DNA of 64,000 nt from Tetrahymena elliotti 4EA (taxonomy: Eukaryota; Ciliophora; Oligohymenophorea; Hymenostomatida; Tetrahymenidae), in the NCBI GenBank assembly GCA_000231825.2, contig JH720349.1, positions 79,763 through 143,762 on the forward strand, written 5' to 3'. Under the pieces are notes generated by a model that worked only from the letters and a program-made list of their open reading frames with translations, had not been told where the DNA came from and did no database searches. The position numbers were made by a program, and so were the translations under genes. Shown here one piece after another: positions 132 to 47,960 of this stretch. Each line of letters begins with the position of its first letter. Within the stretch, counting starts at the first letter, position 1.

Positions 132-1227
132 GTGGAATGATATTAGTGATATGGGAGTATAAGGATTAGTTTCTGGATTAGTAATGTGCTCTAATCTCTA
201 AACTCTGAATCTATTCCTTGAGTAAAAATAATGTTTACGTTAATTATTCATTTTTGAATAAATATTTATTAGCAAATTATTAATTTATTTTTGCTAGATA
301 TTTTTTATTATTTTGAAAAAGAAAAACTTATATTAGCGAAATGGGATTATGGGAATTAGGATCAGGATTAGCAAAATGCCCTCATCTCAAAACTCTGAAT
401 CTTAAGCTTTAGTAAAAATATAGTTTTGATATTAATTATCCATTATTGAATAAAAAATGTTAGTTTTTAAGCTATTGATTAATTAAAGTTTACTTGGTGT
501 TATCCTCATTGGTTTTATTTGTTGTTCTCTAATTTAATTTTTATTAAATATTTATCTTTTTCTTATGATTTAAATGTTTCTTTATTTGACATCTATTTTT
601 ATAATTTTTTAAAAGGTATAATTATATTGATGATACTGGAGTTTAAGGATTGGGATCTGTCTTAGCAAAATGCTAGAATATCTACAATTTAACTCTTAAC
701 CTAAAGTAAAAATTAAATCACAACATTAATAAATTAGCTTGATCATTCATTTTTATTTATTATTTTTAGAGTTAGTTAAATTTGTATATCAATATATCTT
801 TATTCAGCATTTATTTTTATAACTCTTTATAAGGTGGAATAATTTTAGTGAAATCGGAGTCTAAGAATTGGCATCTGAGTTGGCAAAATGCCCAAATCTC
901 TTAGCTTTGACTCTTTATTGTGAGTAAAAATAGCGTTTAATATAATCTTTTATTATTGAAAAAATTATTTACGAGCAAATGACTAATTTAGGTTTACCTG
1001 ATATTTGGTTCATTAAATTTTTATCTGCTTTTTTCAAATTTAACTCTAATTTTGATGTTTTTCTAATTCCTTTAAAATTTCTCTTTATTCCAATTTTATT
1101 TTTATAATTTTTTAAAAGGGGAAATGATATTGATGGAATGGGTTTCTAAAAGTTAATATCAAAACTTTTAAAAGGAAAAAGATTAGTTCTCTAAACAGTT
1201 ATTTACTAAGAAATAAGTTTTGACTGA
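132..1227 (+). CDS. Leucine-rich-repeat protein, C-terminal part (5' end outside the window)
   Basis: Five exons are visible: 132-221, 322-411, 616-705, 834-923 and 1119-1227. The first four are exactly 90 nt and each codes one LRR of about 30 residues with the pattern N-x-I-x(3)-G-x-Q-x-L-x-S-x-L-A-K-C-x-N-L-x-x-L-x-L. Every intron is phase 2, starts GTAAA and ends in AAAG, AAAAG or TAAG. The last exon is a degenerate capping repeat (ISKLLKGKRLV) that ends at TGA 1225-1227. The sequence left of 132 resembles the introns, so the array probably continues outside the window. The repeat resembles ribonuclease-inhibitor-type LRRs; such proteins bind other proteins, but no partner can be inferred. 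TAA/TAG are read as Gln. Neighbouring gene at 1455 is a tandem relative on the same strand. Confidence 0.85.
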
Positions 1228-1454
1228 TCTTACTTATTTTTAAATAATAATATGATTATCTTATATTTTTAAATTTATTTACTTTATTCAATAAAAAATT
1301 TTTTAAAATTAGTGAAATTACAGTTATTTTTTAAAAATTTTATCAAAAATCATTGTATTGTCCTCTATATTTAATAGCAGAACCTTCAGTTCTATATATA
1401 TATATTATTAATTAAAATTGAATTGTATTTCTTAAAAAAATTTTTAAAAAATAA

Positions 1455-4400
1455 ATGCTGAAAGAGAAAACCAAATATTTTAGAAATCTCAGTGATGTAC
1501 TTAAATTTAAAATTATATATAAATATATTTTAATATTTGTATATCAAAAGTTACTCAATTCTAATTTTACTTCTGATTTAAATCTTCATGTTTAGTTAAG
1601 GTAAAACTATTAATGTTTTTTTTCAATTTTGAGTATAATATATTTTTAACTAACTAATTTCGGTTTATTTAACATTTGAATTATTAATTTTTATTTGCTA
1701 TTTTAAATTTAATAACATTTTTTATTTTTTTTCTCATTCTTTCTATCAATAATTATTTTTTTATTTTTTAAAAAGTAGTTAGAAAATTGGTGAAATTAGA
1801 ACATAAGAATTAGGATTCTAGTTAGCAAAATACACTAATCTCTAAAATTTGGCTCTTTATCTCTAGTAAATATTGCATTTTTTATTAATTATGTATTTCT
1901 ACATATATTAAAATTTTAATCTAATAACCAGTGACTAAATTTGGGCTTACTTTATATTTATTTAGCTAATTATTTTTGTTTATTGTTCTCAAATTAAATT
2001 AACATTATTATCTTTTTTTAATTGTTTAAACATTTATTAATTCTGTATTTATTTTTTTTATTTTTTAAAAGGTCTAATAATATTAGGGAAATAGGCGCAT
2101 AAGAATTAGGATCTGGTATAGCAAAATGTTCCAATCTCTAAACTTTGAATCTTCATCTAGAGTAAAAATAATATTTGATAATTAATTATGAATTTTTGAA
2201 TAAATAGTATTTAATTTATAGGTGACTAACTGGCTTGGGTTATTATCATTATTTGGTTTTTTGAAATTTAATGAACATTTTCTTTTTCTCATGTTTGTAA
2301 TATTTCTAATTCAAATATTTATTTTAAAATTATTTGATAGGTACAATTATATTGGCTAAAAAGGAGCATAAAGATTAGGATCAGAGTTAGAAAAATGCTC
2401 TAACCTCTAATCATTGATTCTTAAACTCAGGTAAAAATTGTGTTTCATAATTAATTATGCATTTTTAATTGAATAAATAAAGCTTTTAATTATTTAGTGA
2501 ATGACTAATTTTGGTTTGTTTAAAATTGCTTGGTTAATTAATATTTATTTATTCTATTTCTTTTTTTATTTTTTAATAATCTCTTTTCTCAATACCTATT
2601 TTTATAAAAGGCTTAATAATATTGGTTAAAAGGGAGCATAAGAATTAGCATCAAGTTTAGCAAAATGCTCTAATCTCTAAACCTTGGATTTTGAACTTTG
2701 GTAAAAATAGTATAGTACTTCATAATTAAAGAAAGAATAATTTTGGTTTATTATTTTAAGTTTTTCTCATTAATTTTTAATTGTTTTTCAAATTTAATTC
2801 TTATGTTAAAATTTATCTCATACTTAAACAAAATTTCTTTTCATAATTTAATTAAGTGAAAATAGTGTTGGTGAAGTTGGGTCATAAGAATTAGGATCTG
2901 AGCTAGCAAAATGCCATAAACTCTAAACCTTGACTCTTGATCTTGGGTAAAAATAATGTTTCAATAATAAGTATTCTTACTTAAATAAATAAAAACATTA
3001 ATCTATGAGTAAAATAGTCTAATTTTAGTTTATTTGATTTACTTGGTTCATTTATTTATTTTTAAATTTAATTTACATTTTTATTTATTCTTTATCCTTT
3101 AATAATATAATATTTTTGATAGGTACAATAATGTCGGTTAAATGGGTTCATAAGGATTAGGATCTGAGTTAGCAAAATACTCTAATCTCTAAGCTTTGAT
3201 TCTTAAACTCAGGTAAAAATAGCTCATTCTTAAATTATGAACAACTTAATAGTTGAGTTCACTTTTATTATTTATTTATCTTATTAATTTAATTGATTTT
3301 TCAAATTTAATTCACATTTTTATGCTTGCCTCATTCTTTAAACATTGTTGTTCAATATTTATATCTATAATTTTTAAAAGGGGTAATACTATTGATGAAG
3401 AGGGTTTGAAAGGATTAGCATCTGGCTTAGCAAAATGTTCTAGTATTTAAACTTTGGATCTTGAAGTTTAGTAAAAATGGTGTTTAAATATAAAATTTAT
3501 AAATTTGATAGTATAAATTAAGAGAGCAAGTGATTGATTTGAAAATATTGCTCATTAATTTTCACTTTTTATCTTCAAATGAATTCACATTTTTATACTT
3601 TTTTCTTTCTTTCTTTAAATATTTCTTGACATTTATTTTTATAATTTTTTAAAAGGTAGAATAAGATTAATAATCTATAAGAATTTGTATACGAGTTAGC
3701 AAAATGCTCAAATCTCTCAACTTTAACTCTTAACCTCTCGTAAAATTAGTCATTCAATGTTAATTATGGAATTTTTAATAAATAAATTTTAATTTATCAG
3801 CTACTCTTAAATAATTTGAATGGTTAATTTTGCTTATTAATTTTTAAATAATTTTTTAAAAGATATAATAAAATTGATTAAAAGGGGATTGAAGGATTCA
3901 GTCTCGGTTTAACAGAATGCTCTAATCTTAAAACTTTGATTCTTGATCTCTCGTAAAAATAGTGTTTAATCATTAAGTATTAATTATTAAATTAATAAAG
4001 AATTGAGTGTATGAATAACTGAATCATCATTTAACTTGATATTAGTTTAGAAAATTAATTTTTATTCATTATTTTGAAATTTAATTCATATTTTTCTCTT
4101 TTTCTTGTCATTGAAATATTTTGTAATTCAATATTTCTTTTTTTTATTTTTAAAAGGGAAAATAAGATTGGTTAAAAAGGAGTGTAAAAATTAGGTTCTT
4201 AGTTAGCATAATGCTCTAATCTCTAAAATTTAACTCTTGCTTTTTCGTAAAAATATCATTTTTATTTTGAATTATGCATGTTTAAATAAATAAAAACTTT
4301 AATTTATGAGCAAAAGCTGATGTGTATTTACTTCATTTTTTGGCTCATTAATTTAATTTCATGAATTCAAATTTAATTATTATTTTTATCTTTTTTTGAT

Positions 4401-5311
4401 TTTTTAATCGCTTCCTTATTCAATATTTAATTTTATAATTTTAAAAGCTGCTGTAATATTAATGACATGGGTCTTTAAGAATTAGTAACTAGCTTAGCAA
4501 AAGCCATTAAACTCTTAGCTTTGTCTCTTATCTTCTAGTAAATATAATTCTTCATTATTAATTATGTACCGTCAGTTTTTTAATTTAAGGCAAGGTCTAA
4601 TAAGGTGATTTAATTTTCTGGTTTGTCAGTTTTCATTCATACTTAATTAGAGTTTTTGATCAAATTTTCAATGAAAATTTGTTTAATTGATTTTCTAAAG
4701 AAAATTTGAAGTATATAGTTATAAAAGAAAAAAAACCATAAAAGAAAGAAGGTTAAATCCTACTAAAATGTTACTCAAAAAAAATTTACATGAAAAACTT
4801 GAAATAATAATTTATTAATTTAAATTTATTGAAAAATTAAAGAGGATTAGTATTATTTAATAATTAAGAATCTTAATTTTTAAATTAAAAATTTTCAAAA
4901 ATAAATATTTCTAAGCTAAGGTGTTTTATTTTTTAAAAGCGATGATTAAATTGGAGAAATAAGTGTAAATGAATTGGGATCTCAGTTAGCAAAATACTCT
5001 AATCTCTTAACTTTAACTCTTATCCTTAGGTAAAAATATTACAATATTAATATGCATTAACAAAGAATTTAATTTATCAATTAATGAAGGATTTGGGTTC
5101 AGCTAATACTTGTTTGGTTCATTTATTTTTATTTTTGTTTTCTCACTAATTTAATTCACATTTTTATGTTTTTTAATTGTTTGAAGATGCTTTATTCAAA
5201 TTATTTATAATATTTTTTAAAAGCGGGTAAAACATTATTGAAACTATGATAAACAGATTAAGATCAAAACTTTCAAAATCAAAAAGATTAGTTAAATTAT
5301 ATGTAGAATGA
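1455..5311 (+). CDS. Leucine-rich-repeat protein built from 12 single-repeat exons
   Basis: Fourteen exons: 1455-1600, 1776-1865, 2072-2161, 2341-2430, 2611-2700, 2857-2946, 3123-3212, 3381-3470, 3656-3739, 3863-3952, 4157-4246, 4448-4537, 4940-5029 and 5224-5311. ATG 1455 opens a 146-nt exon that ends in phase 2 at a GTAAAAC donor, exactly the phase needed by the repeats. Eleven of the 12 internal exons are 90 nt and one (3656-3739) is 84 nt, so each exon is one LRR and can be duplicated or lost without frame change. The terminal exon is a capping repeat (SKLSKSKRLVKLYVE) ending at TGA 5309-5311. The predicted protein is about 435 residues with no other domain. The start exon is inferred only from phase and the donor site, so it is less certain than the array. 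Confidence 0.82.
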
Positions 5312-43600: not shown

Positions 43601-45492
43601 GTGAGTTAGTTGCTAAGAATATAAATTATACTTTAAAAATCTGAAAATAAATTTATTCTTTTCTGTAAATAGTTTTTAAAATTAACTTTAAATTATTTCA
43701 ATTATATTGTTAATTTGTATACATTCTTTATAGTAAGTTAATTAATATTGTTATAAATAAGAGCATTTCTTTTATCTATTTTCTAACTTTACTTTTTTAA
43801 AATTTTTTCAAAACAAAAAGTTGTTAAATCTTTAATTTAATAACAAAGCTAGATATACATCCTCTATTTTTATTTTTTCATATTTTTTAATTAAAGCAAA
43901 CTATACAGACATCTAAATAATCTAACATAATTTAATTCTTATTAAGGTTTAATCATTTTTAATTTTATTTTTTTTTTCTTTGAGATGTCGAAGCTAAAAT
44001 TTTTTTAAATTAAAAATAAATATTAAATAAAATTAATTATTAACATTAATTTTTGTTTTTTTATTTTAATTAGCATAGCATATTACCACCAAAGGTTTGA
44101 TTATTATAAAAGGAATCTATAATTAAACTAATCTTTTCGCTTTTTATTATTTTAATTTTAATCTATATACACCAAAATGACACTAACCGCCTTCATAAAC
44201 ATAAAATCTTTTAAAAAATTATAAAATAATTATGAATTTAATATGATGAGAAAAATATGAATAAAATTATAAATCAACAAATAAAAGAATGAGACAAATA
44301 TCAAGTCACTTAGTTTTATTGAAAATAGTTTAATTAAAATTGAAAGATTATGTTTACTTTAAATTAAGATGCAAAGTTTGGAGATTAGATAATTTTGCTA
44401 ACTTAGCTAATTCAGAAAAAAATTCTTATTCTTTAATTTCTTAAGTTTCTCCACCTCTTTTCAAAAAATATACTGAATAAAGTTATTCTTAAAGAATGCA
44501 ATAAAAGTAAAAGTGTAAGTAAATATAAATACAGAACAGTTTAAAAAACCAAAATAAAATTACCGCTTTTAATTTAAAGTCTTTATTTTTCGGAAATACA
44601 ATATTAATATTAAAAAATAATTTTTACATTATGTTTTACCTCAAATTTTTGAGGTTAGAGATTTAGCTAACTCAGCTAACTTGATTCCTAATTCTTTTGC
44701 TCCCTTAACACTTATACTACTAGTGTATCTTTTTATAAAATTAATATGAATAAAATAATATTTAAAGAAAAGGTTAAAATTTAAAGCATGAATTAAAAAT
44801 TTTAAAACAGTAAATAACAATTATTGATCTAAACAAATTTAATTTTTTTATTTTAAAAATACATAACTAATGTTAAGATGCTAATAAATTAAGAGTCCAA
44901 TTTTGTTTTCTCTTTTAAAAATTGTAATAATAAATATGTAATAAAGAAATATAGAAAAGATAAAGAAGTGAATTAAATTTAAAACCAAATATTAATAATT
45001 AATTAATGAACCAATATCGAAATGAATTGAAGTTAGTCAGTAATTATTGATAAATGAAACTATTTATTTATAGTGAAACTATATTTTTACTTGAAGTCAA
45101 TAACCAAAGTTAAGATATTTTAGCAATTAACTAACTCATCTCCTATCTCTTAAACTCCCAAATCACCAATTTAGTTTTAACTTTTGTAAATTAAAATAAC
45201 ATAAATTAGAAAGAGAAAAGATAAAAACATTAATAAAATTTGAAAAAATCAAATAAAAGTTATATCAATCAAGTAAACATAAATTAGTCAGTAGCTGCTG
45301 ATAATTAAGCGTAATGATATATGTCATAAAAAGATTAAAATGAAAATAGCAAATAAAAATTAAAGAGTTAAATATATAGGTAAAATAATGTTGTTATCTT
45401 ATAATTAAATATATTTTTCTTTTATAATTAATATTGAAAAATAACTCTTACTAGAGTTAAAGAGTTAAATTTTATAGATTAAAACATTTTAA

Positions 45493-45766
45493 TAACTCAG
45501 ATGCTAATTTTTACACTCATATCTCACCAATATTATTTTCTCTTTCAAAAATAAAAAAAATTTTTTAAAATTCAGAAATNNNNNNNNNNNNNNNNNNNNN
45601 NNNNNNNNNNNNNNNNNNNNNNNNNNNNNNNNNNNNNNNNNNNNNNNNNNNNNNNNNNNNNNNNNNNNNNNNNNNNNNNTAACTCAGATGCTAATTTTTA
45701 CACTCATATCTCACCAATATTATTTTCTCTTTCAAAAATAAAAAAAATTTTTTAAAATTCAGAAAT
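45493..45766. other. Assembly gap (100 N) flanked by identical 87-bp contig ends
   Basis: Positions 45580-45679 are N. The 87 bases before the gap (45493-45579) and the 87 bases after it (45680-45766) are identical, both starting TAACTCAGATGCTAATTTTT and ending TTCAGAAAT. The run of 100 N is a placeholder length. The simplest reading is that two contigs overlap by 87 bp and were scaffolded without being merged, so the gap is probably not real and the exon 45541-45452 exists once. Confidence 0.9.
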
Positions 45767-46808
45767 TTTTAAGAATGAAAAAAAAATTTTAATTAAATTA
45801 TTAAAAAGTATTTAAAAATTAAAGAACTAGAAAGCATCAAATAAATTCAAACTAGGGAGTTGCTCTCAAATTAAAGACTTATTAATTCATTCAAAAATTC
45901 ATAACTAAAATTTAAACTGTATATTTACAAGAGGAAAGTTTCAAAGTTTAGAGTTAAGAGCAATTTATCAAGCTTGCTCCTAATTATTAAACACCTATTA
46001 GGCAAATATTATTCTTCCTTTTAAAAATTTAAAAAATAAAATAAAAAAAAATTTTTATGAAACATAAAAATCTAAAAATTAATTAATTAATTTTGCAAAA
46101 AAAAACTAAATATCAAGTAAAATAAAATTAGTAATTATCGTTGTTTTGAAGTTAATGATTTATTTTTTTCATATATTAATATCTAAAGTTTGTTTTTACC
46201 AGAGCTAAAGTGTCAAAATTTTGAGATTAATGCATTTTGCTAAGCCAGAACCTAATCCTTATGAGCCTGTATCACCAATTTTATTGTTCCTTTTAAAAAA
46301 AAATTAATAAAAGAAATATTTGAGAATGAGAAAAAAATAAATTTTAAAATAAAATAAATCTGTCGGGATTGACTTGCTCATAAATTTAAGATTTTATTTA
46401 TTTATTAAAAATCATAATTACTAACTGCTGTTTTAACTATTTTTACATAAGGTTTAGAGTCAAATTTTAGAGATTAGAGCATTTGGCTGAGCCAGTTCCT
46501 AATTCTTATGCTCCTCCTACACCGATATTATTAGCTCTTTTAAAAATGATATTTTATAAAAATAATTCTTCAAATAATAAGAAAAAGTTAAAATATGAAT
46601 TAAATTTGAAAACAAGAATTTAAAACTAATAGTCCAGATTAATATCAATTCGTCCAACTTAGTCAGTGAACCACTTGTTAATTAATTCCTCTATTTATTT
46701 AAAAAAGAAAATAAAAGCTGAAACTCTAATTTTACCTAATGTTAAGAGCCAACTTTTCAAGATTAGAGCATTTTGCTAACTGATATCCTAATTTCTAAGA
46801 TTCGATTA

Positions 46809-46933
46809 ACTGTAAATTCTCATTAATTAATATCCCCTTATATTAATACCCATTTTATAAAACTTGAAAATACCCAAAAATTGAAGAAAAAATTATTTAT
46901 TTGATTAGGTATTAATTAATGAGAATTTACAGT
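46809..46933. mobile_element. 125-bp element with 24-bp perfect terminal inverted repeats
   Basis: The left end 46809-46832 (ACTGTAAATTCTC...) is the exact reverse complement of the right end 46910-46933. The interior is AT-rich and non-coding. It lies inside an LRR exon on the minus strand (46950-46736). The exon is 215 nt with the element and exactly 90 nt, with the LRR frame restored, when 46809-46933 is taken out. It may be a MITE or a retained internal eliminated sequence. There is no clear target duplication at these borders; TAA on both sides (46807-46809, 46933-46935) is a possible 3-bp one, but removing one copy would leave 89 nt. Confidence 0.8.
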
Positions 46934-47170
46934 AACTGATATTTTATTCCCTTTTAAGAAATTACAAAAATATATTTTGAATAAAGAATTATTTTAATAA
47001 TGAGAAAGATAAAAAATGTCAATTGAATTTGAAAAAAAAAAACAAATCTAAAAATATTTGTAAAATATCAAATAAACTACCCAATTTAGTTTAAAGAAAT
47101 GAAAAAGCAATTTTGAAACATTATATTTATTAGACTTTAAGAGTCAAAATTGAGATTATTTTATTTAAAG

Positions 47171-47960
47171 AAAAAATATTAAGATAAATCAGAGTTAAAG
47201 AACTTTTAATTAGTAAAAGTTAAAATAAATATATTAAGCATCTAAAATTTAGGTACATCAGTGAGACTTTTAAAATATTTTATATTTTTTATCATTATTT
47301 ATTTTTTTAATTTGATTTGATTTGAATAAGCAGATAATTCTTATTCTGAAAAGTTTATTTAACTTTTTCAAATTAAATTACAAAAATGTAAAAAAATAGA
47401 ATAAATATTTCATTATTTCTAATTTTATTTAAGAGCTATTTTTTCCTTAACTCTATTAATTTTCTAATTATATTTTTCCTAATTTTGTTCCAAAATGGAG
47501 GTTCAAAAATAAAATCATAATTGAAAAAAAATTAGGAAATTTTAAAAATATGTATTTTTAAATTTCATATTATATTTTCTCAATTTTGTACTTAATTTTT
47601 ATCATAGTTAATCATTTACTTCAAGTTTTTTTCAAATAGAATTTTGGAATACTCTTTCATATTAAATTTTCTATTTGATAAGTTTGTTAAAAAAAGGTGT
47701 TTTTTTATTCTCAATAGAAACAATTATTACAAAAATATCTGAAATTTATCTCTTAAATAAATTTAAGGATAATATTTAAATTTTCAAAAGAAGATTTAAA
47801 TTAAAAAGTAAAAACCTACATCAATGAATGTAAAAAATAATAATTAGTATTTATCTATAAAATAATTTTTTAACTTTAAACAAAAGAACACAAACATTCT
47901 TTTCTTATGAAACAATATTTTTTGGAAATAAAATTTTAGTTTTGAATTATTTTGAATTCA
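47171..47960. other. Intergenic region
   Basis: AT-rich spacer between the decayed LRR array and the GST gene. No coding frame, RNA or repeat is seen. Confidence 0.55.

Follow-up and report, generated by a model that had tools for sequence, protein, structure and literature searches.

How does a short segment with perfect inverted ends come to lie within a coding exon of a ciliate somatic chromosome, and which process shaped it? The question is raised by a 64,000-nt stretch of Tetrahymena elliotti 4EA DNA (contig JH720349.1, positions 79,763 to 143,762 of the forward strand), hereafter the window, in which a 123-bp inverted-repeat element interrupts an exon of a leucine-rich repeat (LRR) gene. 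The assembly searched comprises 90 Mb in 134 contigs, and the window is positions 79763-143762 of contig C57 therein. From sequence comparisons we favour, at a probability of about 0.7, the reading that the element is a somatic scar: the body of a transposon would have been removed by programmed deletion, and both of its stubs kept.

The element, its exon and the host assembly

The interrupted exon is located at 46736..46950 on the minus strand. It is preceded by AG and followed by GT, is translated in phase 2, and measures 215 nt with the insertion and 90 nt without it. The element occupies 46810..46932 (CTGTAAATTCTC...GAGAATTTACAG). Its left (46809..46832, plus strand) and right (46910..46933, minus strand) terminal inverted repeats, each 24 bp including the outer A, are complementary at 24 of 24 positions, and the pair is written CTGTAAATNCTCATTAAT; the left repeat matches the family consensus. 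Followed inward as far as the centre, the arms are 63 bp long and agree at 41 of these positions. Apart from an N run, this is the only site in the 64-kb window at which an exact 20-mer lies within 200 bp of its own reverse complement.

The first-pass annotation, made from the sequence alone, had described a 125-bp segment with 24-bp perfect inverted ends in an LRR exon and had noted that 215 - 125 = 90 nt, with the LRR frame restored. The complementary ends bear out the former, and the AG/GT borders and the phase-2 translation, which reads ...NIS(L or Q)IESQKLGYQLAKCSNLEKLALNI once the 125 nt are removed, agree with the latter. The statement that no duplication is left behind is inexact. By comparison with the family described below, which inserts at TA, the 125 nt are the 123-bp element plus one TA copy. 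The right copy of the target-site duplication (46933..46934) is TA, whereas the left copy (46808..46809) is AA, which is most simply a single substitution from TA, as judged from the family flanks and the codon usage of the exon. With an original TA, exon position 6 has the codon TAA, read as Gln in this code. Of 19 window LRR exons, 5 carry TAA there, as do 3 of the 72 exons taken from 19 loci elsewhere. The codon restored by the excision first proposed, TTA, is found at this position in 0 of the 19 window exons and in none of the 71 exons, among the 72 from other loci, for which codons were printed. Target duplications of TAA or TAACTG, both of which also flank the element, were rejected; removal of 126 nt would shorten the exon to 89 nt, and the duplication of the family is TA. 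Because an insertion with a 2-bp duplication suffices to explain the restored 90 nt, the precise excision that had been read from the arithmetic is not needed. Among the matches listed, of 237, no close LRR paralogue with an empty site is present; the best relatives are 70-72% identical over the exon part, and short-piece LRR relatives of the region reach 79%.

The ends also contain GTAAAT and TTTACAG, through which the element might be spliced out as an intron. A GT...AG pair does lie inside the element (46930-46810, minus strand, 121 nt), and introners carrying both splice sites exist (PMC9860276). In the window copy, a 121-nt splice would leave 94 nt, with a frameshift and a TGA, and an introner is ruled out for this copy on reading frame.

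The window is part of a somatic (macronuclear) Tetrahymena chromosome, because of three features taken together: contigs that end in telomeres, the identity of a neighbouring gene, and the exon structure of the LRR genes. CCCCAA telomere repeats are present in at least 20 contigs; in the 16 of these whose repeat could be placed relative to a contig end, it starts at the first bases in 9 and lies within ~50 bases of the known end in 7. The reversed CCCCAA pattern matched the same arrays and is uninformative as a control. The GST gene that adjoins the element shares 81-83% identity with proteins of Tetrahymena malaccensis, T. utriculariae and T. thermophila. LRR exons of exactly 90 nt with phase-2 introns are found near both ends of the two LRR arrays of the window, and 90-bp phase-2 LRR exons are a signature of Tetrahymena macronuclear genomes (PMC6564038).

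The somatic nature of the assembly bears on the proposal that the segment is a precisely excisable internal eliminated sequence (IES) retained in this assembly. Its TA borders and inverted ends recall the IESs of Paramecium and Euplotes (PMC7599177), but excised IESs should be absent from a somatic assembly, in which this segment and many like copies are present. The few precisely excised exonic IESs of Tetrahymena, which depend on TPB1/TPB6 in T. thermophila, likewise have transposon-like inverted ends inside coding regions; as far as the sources describe them, they are distinguished by a TTAA border, a CACTTT end and precise removal, none of which is seen here. A retained IES is rejected because the segment and its many relatives are in the somatic assembly, and we give this proposal a very low probability.

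The family of ends and their inner breakpoint

The first-pass annotation had suggested a search for other genomic copies that share the end, and such copies are abundant. The extended end TACTGTAAATNCTCATTAATTAA is found, at no more than 3 mismatches, at 238 places in the assembly versus 38 for the reversed pattern, an excess of about 200 ends, and a shorter end motif at 126 places versus 27. Within the window, a 13-bp end motif with 2 mismatches has 7 matches, two of which are the element's own, versus 4.2 expected; the 13-bp motif alone is ordinary there, and what exceeds chance is the perfect pair together with the genome-wide family. Loci fetched from the first 100 of the 126 places and from the first part of the 238 gave a sample of 93 loci (40 + 53) and 111 ends. 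A partner end at no more than 4 mismatches is present inward of 44 of the 111 ends and outward of 4. At the same threshold, and with no length filter over the 68-317 bp searched, 28 distinct pairs are formed, 23 of which are 121-130 bp long.

The duplication was counted in 34 of 79 candidate pairs, chosen for a partner at no more than 5 mismatches and a length of 108-132 bp, with one of two readings of locus L017 omitted. TA is present on both sides in 24 of these 34 reliable pairs, the window copy itself being AA/TA. The longest flank duplication is 2 bp in 23 pairs, 1 bp in 3 and 6 bp in 1, and there is none in 7. The terminal inverted repeats and the TA duplication identify the family, on sequence grounds, as the ends of a TA-inserting (Tc1/mariner-like) transposon. 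The flanks of the 34 copies are AT-rich, with a mean GC of 0.189 versus 0.239 for random window stretches, and most copies therefore probably lie outside coding sequence. Such a location also argues against the introner, which we consider highly improbable. In 308,537 fetched bases, some of them overlapping, no other inverted-repeat family spaced at ~125 bp was found at a strict threshold. One locus, L035, carries two near-identical tandem copies (452-574 and 650-772) whose starts are 198 bp apart and whose flank is duplicated too.

Dispersed copies of this kind could form a plain miniature inverted-repeat transposable element (MITE), which is the main rival of the scar reading: a 123-bp non-autonomous TA-inserting (Tc1/mariner-like) element that does not differ between germline and soma and has entered the exon. 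One of the closest known classes, which we take to be Tc1/mariner-like or Stowaway-like MITEs, shares with the present family the TA duplication, the inverted ends, a length of ~125 bp and many dispersed copies. It differs in that the family has no common interior, includes half copies of ~62 bp, and has no transposase established with these ends. The interiors of 35 paired elements fall into 18 clusters at one chosen threshold; ends and length are shared but the interior is not, and one common interior from end to end is found only within single clusters.

Each paired copy looks instead like two end modules of ~62 bp, as judged from copies with one or two ends. Among 120 sampled ends, 58 are two-sided and about half are one-sided. 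In comparisons that ran inward beyond the shared repeat, homology was seen in 158 of 7140 end pairs, versus 0 of 7140 after shuffling; this stricter run replaced an earlier loose-scoring extension, which drifted through AT-rich sequence (193 shuffled versus 410 real pairs passing). Homology ends at 60-67 bp in 56 of the 158 pairs and extends to 120-148 bp in 15, which are either complete copies from a single cluster or the tandem pair L035. Module families were analysed with the 96 of the 158 pairs that score at least 22. At this score, homology ends at 59-66 bp in 44 of the 61 pairs with at least one one-sided copy. One-sided members occur in 7 module families, every one of which breaks at ~59-66 bp, the L016 family loosely (51-78 bp).

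A BLAST search with the whole copy L051 (126 bp), rather than with the end motif, produced 16 matches. The midpoint is crossed by 7 of them, one of which ends at 96; the other 9 are half-matches, each with its inner edge at query positions 63-66. In method this search is independent of the sampling; in loci it is so only in part, since 7 of the 9 had already been sampled (L028, L050, L080, L087, L097, L111 and L150) and 2 are new (on contigs C90 and C72). A further 20 loci (24 ends) were picked with TA in the pattern, and their TA flanks were left out of the counts. Of these extra ends, 6 match another end at a score of at least 22. Breaks are at 62-65 bp (L150), 59 bp (L152 and L156), 47-61 bp (L153) and 52-60 bp (L162), and the two-sided L147 breaks at 55-76 bp or, against its cluster mate, continues to 129 bp.

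The window element has the same construction. Its left end module (46810..46871, plus strand, 62 bp) is common to a one-sided copy at C40:363013-363075, with 97% identity over 63 bp including the outer base; homology ends there, and the sequences are unrelated beyond. The right end module (46872..46932, minus strand, 61 bp) is the rest of the element and has no module-family partner at a score of at least 22. Both modules are covered by a two-sided relative at C87:235341-235472 (73%). The end of homology at 62 bp would place a deletion junction between the modules, at 46871..46872.

One-sided copies that mostly run for ~62 bp and then enter unrelated sequence are not what random truncation of a MITE would give, and together with the unshared interiors they make a plain MITE rather unlikely. 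The earlier suggestion of a MITE or an eliminated sequence thus survives in part: the element is a transposon-derived inverted-repeat insertion in which DNA elimination was probably involved, but its reading as a precisely excisable IES retained in the assembly is not supported. At locus L091 (502-788), ends with TA flanks are 287 bp apart, and the first 64-65 bp are common to the 125-bp copy L053. This copy is perhaps a less complete deletion, which would retain part of the transposon body.

Deletion boundaries in Tetrahymena

The internal breakpoints at ~62 bp suggest a deletion of the internal part of each copy, with the ends as its remnant. In the course of events that we propose, a TA-inserting transposon ending in CTGTAAATNCTCATTAATTAAG would have landed, in the germline, in a TAA (Gln) codon of the LRR exon. 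During development of the somatic nucleus, the heterochromatin-guided deletion pathway of Tetrahymena would remove the transposon body, with a cut ~62 bp inside each transposon end, a position seen as the point where homology stops. The inverted ends would act like the flanking boundary sequences of T. thermophila and place the cut; both 24-bp terminal repeats of the window element are accordingly proposed as boundary (flanking regulatory) sequences. The two 62-bp stubs would then be joined, and a scar of ~125 bp would persist in the somatic chromosome. In the one-sided copies, one end may have served as a boundary while the other edge of the deletion fell in unrelated sequence. Under this scheme the body would be present in the germline and removed at each generation by a Tpb2-like enzyme, with the ends as boundary signals.

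The scar reading also draws on geometry, since retained inverted repeats ~125 bp apart, with locus-specific DNA between them, match the boundaries of T. thermophila. In that species, most deletions are imprecise and are made by Tpb2p at heterochromatin borders, many of which have inverted repeats retained outside the cut, at ~62 bp for TACCNT, ~65 bp for the TATA-core and ~45 bp for A5G5 (PMC6547420). According to the same source, removal of TACCNT in vivo unsettles the deletion boundary, and one-sided motifs are common, with 1881 TACCNT copies near IESs and 198 cases paired on both sides. The IESs bounded by flanking regulatory sequences (FRSs; the TACCNT T-domain, A5G5/Lia3 and Ltl1-dependent groups) resemble the present family in that the inverted repeats are kept in the soma and face the deletion point from both sides, each about equally far from it. 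The ~62-bp offset found here is that of the TACCNT (~62 bp) and TATA-core (~65 bp) repeats, and two FRS repeats left in the soma are ~125-130 bp apart, again with locus-specific DNA between them. The repeats described here differ from FRSs in that their length (~22 bp) and flanking TA duplication reveal them as transposon ends, and in that they are known from the somatic side alone. The MITIES/BogoMITE elements of Blepharisma (PMC9942856) are likewise short inverted-repeat derivatives of transposons linked to ciliate DNA elimination, but they sit in eliminated DNA with a TAA/TTA duplication, whereas the ends described here remain in the soma. Among the titles and abstract openings listed in searches of the open-licence literature, none concerned such transposon stubs in a somatic genome.

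Several observations weigh against a programmed deletion. All the evidence comes from a somatic assembly, and the deleted body itself is unseen. Of the 158 homologous end pairs, 43 end at 32-43 bp; they score low, and what they have in common beyond the repeat is short. A BLAST search with L016 gave 13 matches, of which 3 are nearly whole and 10 partial, and the inner edges of the partial matches are looser, spread over query positions 28-62 of 125 with 5 of 10 at 56-62. The inner edges of the L051 half-matches fall within 4 bp, which is tighter than the mean difference of 11 bp for TACCNT in T. thermophila (PMC6547420). Several two-sided copies of one family, at least five, have nearly the same junction, as expected of an amplified MITE. 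Finally, no transposase bounded by these ends was established among 8 relic loci.

These relics belong to a set of 24 matches to DDE_3 transposases in the somatic assembly (for example L055-L062), 12 of which have an in-frame TGA. Somatic Tetrahymena genomes are usually considered transposase-poor. At one of the 8 relic loci, L059, two facing ends at 4 mismatches are ~640 bp apart, and they are weak enough to be due to chance. Seven one-sided ends were followed for ~6 kb. A facing end at 4 mismatches was met for two of them (L121 and L122), at distances of 1.9 and 4.3 kb; by estimate, chance alone would give about as many. Locus L122 also contains ~1 kb of very low GC (~1853-3001; open frames of 0.03-0.12 GC) at ~3 kb from the one-sided end.

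The body may instead have been lost in the germline, for example when the gap left by excision was wrongly repaired, with the stub then inherited. In a somatic assembly, such a germline fossil is indistinguishable from a somatic deletion. However, an offset of ~62 bp in seven module families calls for a measuring mechanism, and this offset equals that of the boundary repeats of T. thermophila (PMC6547420); inheritance of a germline stub is thus improbable.

The scar reading can be carried one step further, with odds that we put about even. The inverted ends of TA-inserting transposons would themselves be deletion boundary elements in Tetrahymena, with the cut ~62 bp inward, leaving ~125-bp palindrome-ended scars in the soma, in exons too; TACCNT would be the outer edge of such an end, that is, the TA duplication followed by CCNT. 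The TACCNT form of the transposon end is found at 80 places at no more than 1 mismatch versus 2 for the reversed pattern, and 34 of the 80 keep TACCNT itself. It is present in 5 of the 120 sampled ends, a sample chosen for the TACTGT form, and at L071 both ends, 133 bp apart, read TACCGT. The outer edge of this subset of ends equals the TACCNT of T. thermophila, although on its own a motif of six letters, one of them free, is weak evidence.

Thousands of Tetrahymena deletions are positioned by short flanking sequences whose origin is unsettled, and the idea that boundary sites derive from transposon ends is already in print as speculation (PMC6698652). The present family joins recognisable transposon ends and an insertion duplication to the known boundary offset, which makes the idea of a transposon origin testable. 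If the scar reading is true, this genus clears an exonic transposon insertion poorly: the bulk of it is removed, and a frame-breaking stub stays.

The host LRR gene and neighbouring sequence

The net 125 nt of the scar leave the exon out of frame, which may be tolerated because the LRR array was already decaying. Downstream of the interrupted exon, the minus-strand array continues with 90-nt exons at 46447..46536 and 46200..46289, an 89-nt exon whose frame is broken (45929..46017), a 90-nt exon with an in-frame TGA (45452..45541) and a 90-nt exon at 45091..45180. With one 89-nt exon, one exon containing an in-frame TGA and one interrupted exon, this array looks like a decaying gene. In a motif scan, the plus-strand LRR array (132-5029) contains 15 exons, each exactly 90 nt long, and it is apparently intact.

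Within the minus-strand array, a run of exactly 100 N (45580-45679) is placed between identical 87-bp direct repeats (45493-45579 = 45680-45766); the scaffolding probably left an overlap here, in which a single LRR exon appears twice. On the other side of the interrupted exon, the stretch 47174-47400 has relatives elsewhere at 71-76%, two of which adjoin other LRR arrays (C23:939225 and C133:5623), with another at C17:719212; it is perhaps an upstream part common to LRR genes.
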